Below, in pieces: positions 30,535 through 32,298 of a stretch of DNA of 36,775 nt. The position numbers and the translations under genes are program-made. The stretch is from an uncultured Mucispirillum sp. GTDB lineage: Bacteria > Chrysiogenota > Deferribacteres > Deferribacterales > Mucispirillaceae. Numbering within the stretch: the stretch's first letter is position 1; every line of letters starts with the position of its first letter. The stretch spans positions 1 through 36,775 of the forward strand of contig CALUWI010000020.1 of NCBI GenBank assembly GCA_944324465.1. The letters are read 5' to 3'. The notes below the pieces were generated by a model. It was not told where the DNA came from and made no database searches. It saw only the letters and a list, made by a program, of their open reading frames with translations.

Positions 30535-32241
30535 TTATTTCTCTTTAAATTCTATTTTTACAGGATAGTTTGAATAATTCAAACCAGTTCCATAAAGCAA
30601 ACCATCTTCAGTTAAAAAATATATATCATTACTATGAGATTCAGATATTACTTTCTTAATTGTTCCAGTAATACCAGTAATAAGTGTTGGTATGGTTATG
30701 TTTTCTTCATTATTTCCAACACCCAACTTGCCTTTATAATTACTACCCCATGCATAAAGTGAGTCATCTTCCATTAAGGCATAAAACGATGAACCAGTTA
30801 TTAGTTCTTTTATCTTACTAGGTAAATTTACTTTCGTAGGTGTATTTCTATTTACTTCATCACCAACACCCAGATGACCATCTCTATTATCACCCCATGC
30901 ATAAAGTGAGCCATCTTCGAGAATAGCATAAATATTAGTTGCATTATTTATTATCTCTTTAATAGTGCCAGATAGATTTACTTTAGTAGGTGTATTTCTA
31001 TTTATTTCATCACCAACCCCTAGCTGACCAAAATAATTATAACCCCATGTATAAAGTGAACCATCTTCCAGTATAGCATAACTACCACCTGTAAACTCTT
31101 TAATCTTTCCAGGTAAATTAACTTTAGTTGGTATGTTTCTATTTACTTCATCACCAACCCCCAGCTCACCACTACCATTATAACCCCAGGCATAAAGTGA
31201 ACCATCTTCCAGTATAGCATAACTACCACCTGTAAACTCTTTAATCTTGCCAGGTAAATTAACTTTAGTTGGTATGTTTCTATTTACTTCATCACCAACC
31301 CCCAGCTCACCACTACCATTAGAACCCCAAGCATAAAGAGAGTTATCTTCTGTTATGGCATAGATTGATGAATCATTTATTAGCTCTTTAATTGTGCCAT
31401 TAATACCAGTAACAAGTGTTGGTGTGGATATCTGTTCTTCATTACTTCCAAGCCCCAATCGCCCATGAGTATTTTCGCCCCAAGTATAAAGAGAGCTATC
31501 TTCCATCAAGGCATAAACTGAATTAAAGTAACTCCTTAGTTCTTTAATCTTGCCAGGTAGATTAACTTTTGTAGGTGTATTTCTATCTACTCTATCGCCA
31601 AGCCCCAGGGTGCTGAAATAATTATTACCCCAAGCATATAAAGAGCCATCTTCTGTTATGGCATATATTGATGAACCATATATTGATAAACCATATACAG
31701 TATATGTTCCTAGCTCCTTAATTTTACCAGTGATACCAGTAACCTTTATAGGTTTAGTTTGATTATCAGTATTACCAATCCCAAGCTGACCATCACTATT
31801 ATCACCCCATACATAAAGTTCTCCATTTTCTGTTATAGCATAAAATGAAGATTTAGTAATATAAGAGTCTGAAACTCTATCATAGATTTCGTAACTTTCT
31901 ACTGTAAGCTGATTAATTTTATCAGGAATATTAACTTTTTTCTTATTCTGTTGGTCTACATTTTCATCAGTAATTCCTAACCCCAGCTGACCATGATTAT
32001 TATTACCCCAAGCGTAAAGTGAACCATCATATAAGATTGCATATTGGGAATATAATGAATTATCATCCCACGTAAGAATATTATAAAATTCTTTTACAGA
32101 ATTCGGTTCTGGCTGGACTGTGCCACCGCCGTCATTATTTCCGCCACTATTACTTTCATTACTGCTGTCACTGCATGCAGTTATCATAAAAATAGATAAA
32201 ACAGCAAAAAGTAATGTTATTATAAATTTTTTCTTTTGCAT
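30535..32241 (-). CDS. RCC1-repeat surface lipoprotein
   Basis: A 568-residue lipoprotein: signal peptide with lipobox I-T-A-C (Cys23), a Ser/Asn/Gly linker, then nine clear RCC1-type repeats, each with a core such as L-Y-A-W-G-x-N-x-x-G-x-L-G-x-G, and a degenerate tenth (L-Y-G-T-G-L-N-Y). The period is about 47-50 residues. RCC1 repeats build beta-propellers; in bacteria they are often exported and their ligands are unknown. Neighbouring repeats are nearly identical at DNA level (31051-31321), so copy number may change by recombination. Expression likely depends on the poly-C promoter spacer at 32278-32292. AAAGGAGC precedes the ATG by about 6 nt. Confidence 0.9.
   Translation of the reverse strand: MQKKKFIITLLFAVLSIFMITACSDSSNESNSGGNNDGGGTVQPEPNSVKEFYNILTWDDNSLYSQYAILYDGSLYAWGNNNHGQLGLGITDENVDQQNKKKVNIPDKINQLTVESYEIYDRVSDSYITKSSFYAITENGELYVWGDNSDGQLGIGNTDNQTKPIKVTGITGKIKELGTYTVYGLSIYGSSIYAITEDGSLYAWGNNYFSTLGLGDRVDRNTPTKVNLPGKIKELRSYFNSVYALMEDSSLYTWGENTHGRLGLGSNEEQISTPTLVTGINGTIKELINDSSIYAITEDNSLYAWGSNGSGELGVGDEVNRNIPTKVNLPGKIKEFTGGSYAILEDGSLYAWGYNGSGELGVGDEVNRNIPTKVNLPGKIKEFTGGSYAILEDGSLYTWGYNYFGQLGVGDEINRNTPTKVNLSGTIKEIINNATNIYAILEDGSLYAWGDNRDGHLGVGDEVNRNTPTKVNLPSKIKELITGSSFYALMEDDSLYAWGSNYKGKLGVGNNEENITIPTLITGITGTIKKVISESHSNDIYFLTEDGLLYGTGLNYSNYPVKIEFKEK
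31051..31321. repeat. Near-identical 141-bp tandem repeat inside the RCC1 gene
   Basis: Bases 31051-31180 and 31192-31321 match at 129 of 130 positions (the difference is T31108/G31249), with a 141-bp period (47 codons, in frame). The other RCC1 units are clearly more diverged, so this pair reflects a recent duplication or gene conversion. Confidence 0.9.
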
Positions 32242-32271
32242 AGTAAGCTCCTTTTCTAAATTTTTTTACCC

Positions 32272-32298
32272 ATTTTATCATGGGGGGGGGAATGTCAA
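32272..32298 (-). promoter_or_regulatory. Promoter with poly-C spacer, candidate phase-variation switch
   Basis: On the minus strand a perfect -35 box TTGACA (32298-32293) and a -10 box TAAAAT (32277-32272) are separated by 15 bp, of which nine are a single C run (G9 on the plus strand, 32282-32290). The predicted transcript starts about 25 nt before the RCC1 lipoprotein ATG. A C9 run is exceptional in such AT-rich DNA. Slippage would change spacer length; two more C would give the optimal 17 bp. Confidence 0.72.

Follow-up and report, generated by a model that had tools for sequence, protein, structure and literature searches.

The analysed window, a stretch of 36,775 nucleotides (36.8 kb), belongs to a 2.42-Mb genome in 31 contigs from the genus Mucispirillum, phylum Deferribacterota. 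Its minus strand carries a gene for an RCC1-repeat lipoprotein preceded by a predicted promoter with a poly-C spacer (Table 1). Positions 32298-32272 on this strand were TTGACA-TT-C9-ATGA-TAAAAT, flanked by a C before TTGACA and by GG after TAAAAT, which sets the two boxes 15 bp apart. The homopolymer was G9 on the plus strand (32282-32290) and CCCCCCCCC on the minus strand (32290-32282), and it was the sole C/G run of at least 7 in the window, where shuffled sequences averaged 0.25 such 7-mers. The promoter faces the ORF at 30535-32241, with 30 nt between the -10 box and the ATG at 32241, and the translation contained nine RCC1 stretches (Pfam E 1e-93) and the lipobox ITAC-SDS. Re-reading of the sequence confirmed the TTGACA and TAAAAT boxes facing the RCC1 lipoprotein, the nine C residues, the 15-bp spacer and the coordinates given in the initial annotation, which had missed the TG at 32280-32279 that forms an extended -10 element (TGATAAAAT).

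Table 1. Features of the poly-C promoter and its gene in the window, with related coding tracts of the source genome.
Feature	Position	Strand	Remark
-35 box TTGACA	32293..32298	-	Read from the sequence; unchanged in six species
C9 homopolymer in the promoter spacer (15 bp in all)	32282..32290	-	C7-C11 in sister copies
TG of the extended -10 element	32279..32280	-	TG here in 48/66 scored copies
-10 box TAAAAT	32272..32277	-	TATAAT in several orthologs
Ribosome-binding site AGGAG	32248..32252	-	AAAAGGAG invariant in the six-species alignment
RCC1-repeat lipoprotein, 568 aa, gene behind the promoter	30535..32241	-	ORF, Pfam RCC1, lipobox in translation
141-bp RCC1 repeat unit, 2.7 tandem copies inside the gene	30955..31338	-	Possible size variation
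Molybdopterin oxidoreductase tracts (L008, L121, L126, L131, L132)	Source-genome (G000) contigs C1, C10, C15, C23, C25		

Conservation of the promoter was assessed in an alignment of orthologs from six species. CTTGACA, C9 and TGATA were unchanged throughout, amid an intergenic region much of which differed between two groups of species, a pattern that lends good support to the use of these boxes. The tract at this locus was C9 in all six species, and one ortholog carried an extra T that brought its spacer to 16. These observations support a real promoter with a poly-C spacer before a lipoprotein gene. A comparison within species was also sought; the genome contig records gave one Mucispirillum record, which was a genome already included (G009), and the plasmid records gave nothing.

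A BLAST search with the intergenic region returned the orthologs and, in addition, a 29-nt core that recurred, with 97–100% identity, at many unrelated sites across the genus. The pattern TTGACANNC7 occurred 49 times in nine of ten Mucispirillum genomes, compared with a single occurrence of the reversed pattern, and a broader pattern (TTGACA-N0-6-C7-...-TANNNT) matched between 3 and about 14 sites in each of nine of the ten, again with one hit for the reversed control. The tenth genome, which had no site, was only 57% complete. Among 51 Deferribacterota genomes, the promoter pattern was confined to Mucispirillum and one neighbouring genus (G011). A chance origin of these promoters was ruled out by the reversed-pattern controls. 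The collected set held 68 distinct copies, one of them from the neighbouring genus, and their consensus was (A-rich)-CTTGACA-TT-C9-RTGA-TATAAT. Going beyond the initial annotation, this indicates that the candidate switch extends beyond the RCC1 gene, the promoter being repeated across the genus. A second class, TTGACA-N10-G9-TATGAT with a 19-bp spacer, was seen before small proteins, one per species in five species (L180-L184); shortening of its tract would shift the spacer toward 17 bp.

The ORFs located behind the promoters were examined for the type of product they encode. Predicted lipoproteins made up 47 of the 64 downstream ORFs (about 73%) as against 19 of 221 neighbouring ORFs (9%; Fisher p about 3e-24), where lipoproteins were called by a simple signal rule and the neighbours were the other ORFs of the same stretches. 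By this enrichment the controlled products are of the envelope kind, their surface exposure being assumed. The N-termini and lengths of the downstream proteins varied widely, so they do not form one homologous family. A Pfam scan of 20 of them found one further RCC1 protein and matched two non-lipoproteins to Glucos_trans_II and SUFU, with no match for the others. The other products included secreted proteins and a GtrII-like glucosyltransferase.

The copies were then compared for the length of the tract and of the spacer, each multi-contig or single-contig assembly (most genomes of the set were multi-contig and one was a single contig) providing one consensus length per tract. Among the 68 copies, C9 was found in 50, C10 in eight, C8 in six, C7 in three and C11 in one. 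Spacers of 15 bp were the most frequent (41 copies), followed by 16 bp (10), 14 bp (9), 19 bp (3), 17 bp (2) and 13 bp (1), two copies being unscored because of the automatic choice of the -10 box. The TG of the extended -10 element was present in 48 copies, and the -10 box was TATAAT or TAAAAT in 47. Two promoters from different species (L128 and L170) agreed perfectly for 60 nt in both directions and differed solely in having C9 and C7, respectively, and another pair (L175 and L129) had C9 and C8 within near-identical flanks. Length therefore differed among otherwise alike promoters in these comparisons between species, and the comparative data point to a promoter family that is probably variable by slippage. 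The initial annotation had proposed counting the C-run across sibling genomes and had regarded a uniform C9 as the outcome that would speak against a switch; the sister copies ranged from C7 to C11, but the locus itself, C9 in six of six species, came close to such uniformity.

The number of C residues showed no tendency to offset the number of other spacer bases (Spearman -0.05), a comparison of low power in that 49 of 66 copies share one flank length. Coding tracts and the tracts of the 19-bp poly-G promoters typically had nine residues as well. Because C number showed no compensation and G9 recurs in the 19-bp class, a length of nine appears to be a property of the tract rather than of one geometry. 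Moreover, in Campylobacter jejuni opposing slippage biases keep tracts mainly at G9-G10 (PMC8355987), and since such an equilibrium can give C9, a C9 consensus alone does not refute switching.

Homopolymers were also abundant elsewhere in the source genome, where 35 C/G runs of at least 8 were counted from separately read stretches. Many were intragenic and lay in genes of typically phase-variable kinds, several of them out of frame. A G10 tract (L004; G000:C1:40176-40185) splits a DNA methylase (N6_N4_Mtase) out of frame, marking a candidate phase-variable methyltransferase, and a sulfatase-family protein (L133) with G9 was out of frame in the assembly. Members of a Tat-signal molybdopterin oxidoreductase family carried G9-G10 shortly after a lipobox-like Cys, out of frame in L008, L126 and L132 and in frame in L121 and L131, which suggests that these may be phase-variable respiratory enzymes. 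Seven G9-G11 tracts lay within about 14 kb of a cluster resembling surface-polysaccharide genes (L119; G000:C9:108000-127070). Intact mutS and mutL were found in the well-covered genomes; variation driven by lost mismatch repair was rejected on this ground, and any switching therefore occurs with mismatch repair present.

Taken with the envelope character of the products, the anatomy and recurrence of the promoter make it likely, in our judgement, that the element represents one of the dispersed copies of a sigma-70-type promoter that serves mainly Mucispirillum lipoprotein genes and in which slippage of the tract sets the transcription of the gene downstream. Slipped-strand mispairing would gain or lose C residues in the tract, each change altering the distance between the -35 and -10 boxes by 1 bp and thereby how strongly the lipoprotein gene behind it is transcribed, an effect that would be heritable and reversible. 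We infer that such slippage would take place within populations, where the tracts would stay near C9 because short G/C runs are subject to opposing biases towards insertion and deletion, and not because of a fixed geometric need. A graded output would be expected: strongest at C10-C11, low to intermediate at C9, weak at C7-C8, and declining from C12 onwards. With a separate tract for every lipoprotein, a population could contain many combinations of envelope lipoproteins, and slipped-strand variation of spacing probably tunes the lipoprotein set of each cell.

The spacing of ordinary promoters bears on which length would be active. In Escherichia coli the spacer optimum is 17 bp. TTGACA/TATAAT pairs that lack poly-C, counted in five genomes of the genus, were spaced by 15 bp in 21 cases, 16 bp in 28 and 17 bp in 20, with 2–11 at each of 12–14 and 18–20 bp; some of these pairs are due to chance (overall, the reversed pattern was about as frequent) or are repeated orthologs, yet the peak at 15–17 with a mode of 16 was clear. 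Because ordinary pairs peak at 15–17, a spacer of 15 bp falls within the native range, and the TG of the extended -10 element should help to buffer a short spacer. On these comparisons, the C9 form would probably give low-to-intermediate output, its spacing lying at the short end of what works. The initial annotation had instead taken C9 as off or low and C11 as on. Such a binary form of the slippage explanation, with the 15-bp spacer off and the 17-bp spacer on, agrees with the E. coli optimum, and the spacer homopolymers of opc, porA and fetA do act by spacing (PMC2791445). It would nevertheless make the off state the consensus at most loci in nine species and leave the on state to the single C11 among 68 copies, and it does not fit the native spacing of the genus or a promoter that bears an extended -10 TG; we regard it as rather improbable. 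What persists of the proposed phase switch is thus a promoter family that appears slippage-variable in comparisons, and not the assignment of its on and off states.

A different explanation dispenses with switching: the C9 spacer would be a conserved structural feature, or one read by a regulator, of a lipoprotein regulon that requires 15 bp. The predominance of exactly C9 and of 15-bp spacers, the C9 shared by the six aligned orthologs of the window promoter, the conservation of the RTGA and TT flanks and the intact mismatch repair are all compatible with such a fixed class, and intact mutS and mutL would also lower slippage rates relative to C. jejuni, which is a point against variation. However, spacers of 13, 14, 16, 17 and 19 bp stand before the same kinds of genes, otherwise identical promoters differ in C number alone, the C number does not offset the other spacer bases, and a 15-bp geometry cannot explain the same usual length in coding tracts and 19-bp poly-G promoters. 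We therefore consider a fixed class unlikely. Some sequencing methods make homopolymer errors, and the run could in principle be an assembly artefact or a chance run without a role; its presence in nine of ten independent assemblies, one a single-contig genome, together with the single reversed-pattern hit, its retention in six species and the strong lipoprotein bias, renders this highly improbable.

Promoter homopolymers that control surface proteins are known from other bacteria, as the initial annotation had noted. In Neisseria meningitidis, unstable C/G homopolymers lie between the -35 and -10 boxes of the surface-protein genes opc, porA and fetA (PMC2791445; opc poly-C, PMC3960869), the same position as in Mucispirillum. 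Those are single unrelated loci of Proteobacteria for which the relation of length to expression has been measured, whereas the Mucispirillum element, known here from its sequence, is a repeated promoter with an extended -10, present at 3–14 sites per genome and mostly before lipoproteins. In Mycoplasma hyorhinis, every vlp gene has a promoter homopolymer that switches surface lipoproteins, and internal repeats vary the protein size (PMC10502178); the vlp tracts are poly-A and belong to one homologous family, in contrast to the poly-C tracts dispersed before mostly unrelated lipoproteins in the Gram-negative Mucispirillum. The C. jejuni phasome comprises G/C tracts across the genome, mainly 9-10 long, both coding and intergenic (PMC8355987). 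Most of them are coding and the organism has no functional mismatch repair, whereas Mucispirillum has mutS and mutL and a large promoter class beside the coding class.

In the open-access literature, no earlier report of phase variation in Mucispirillum or of a poly-C promoter switch in the phylum was found, and the 2017 Mucispirillum schaedleri genome paper made no mention of phase variation, homopolymers or promoters. The class of mechanism is already known, while its scale, one module serving a lipoprotein regulon, and the phylum look new. A broader interpretation, which we advance tentatively as having somewhat less than an even chance, is a genus-wide bet-hedging system in which a near-identical poly-C module has been copied before many mostly unrelated lipoproteins at the short end of workable spacing, so that single-C slips could re-set each one independently in small steps, with a coding poly-G layer of on/off control that would include the Tat-exported molybdopterin oxidoreductases.

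Mucispirillum schaedleri is a core bacterium of mouse-gut mucus and is linked to inflammation. If many independent poly-C promoters set its lipoprotein coat, expression states would be mixed within clonal cultures and within gnotobiotic mice, with possible consequences for immune recognition, for sensitivity to phages and for reproducibility.

Three look-alike promoters from IMG/VR were considered as possible alleles and rejected, as their contigs (56%, 48% and 40% GC) had no blastn match to the compared loci and were unrelated. On the 56% GC contig (L185, 6758-6786), the element TTGACAAT-C10-TGTGATAAAAT with a spacer of 17 stands ahead of an ORF and is apparently an independent poly-C promoter. 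With regard to the gene in the window, RCC1 genes including L102 and L177 carried near-identical tandem units of 141–150 bp, the orthologs having exact direct repeats as long as 236 bp and protein lengths of 538–760 aa. The tandem repeats and these lengths suggest that the lipoprotein may also vary in size.
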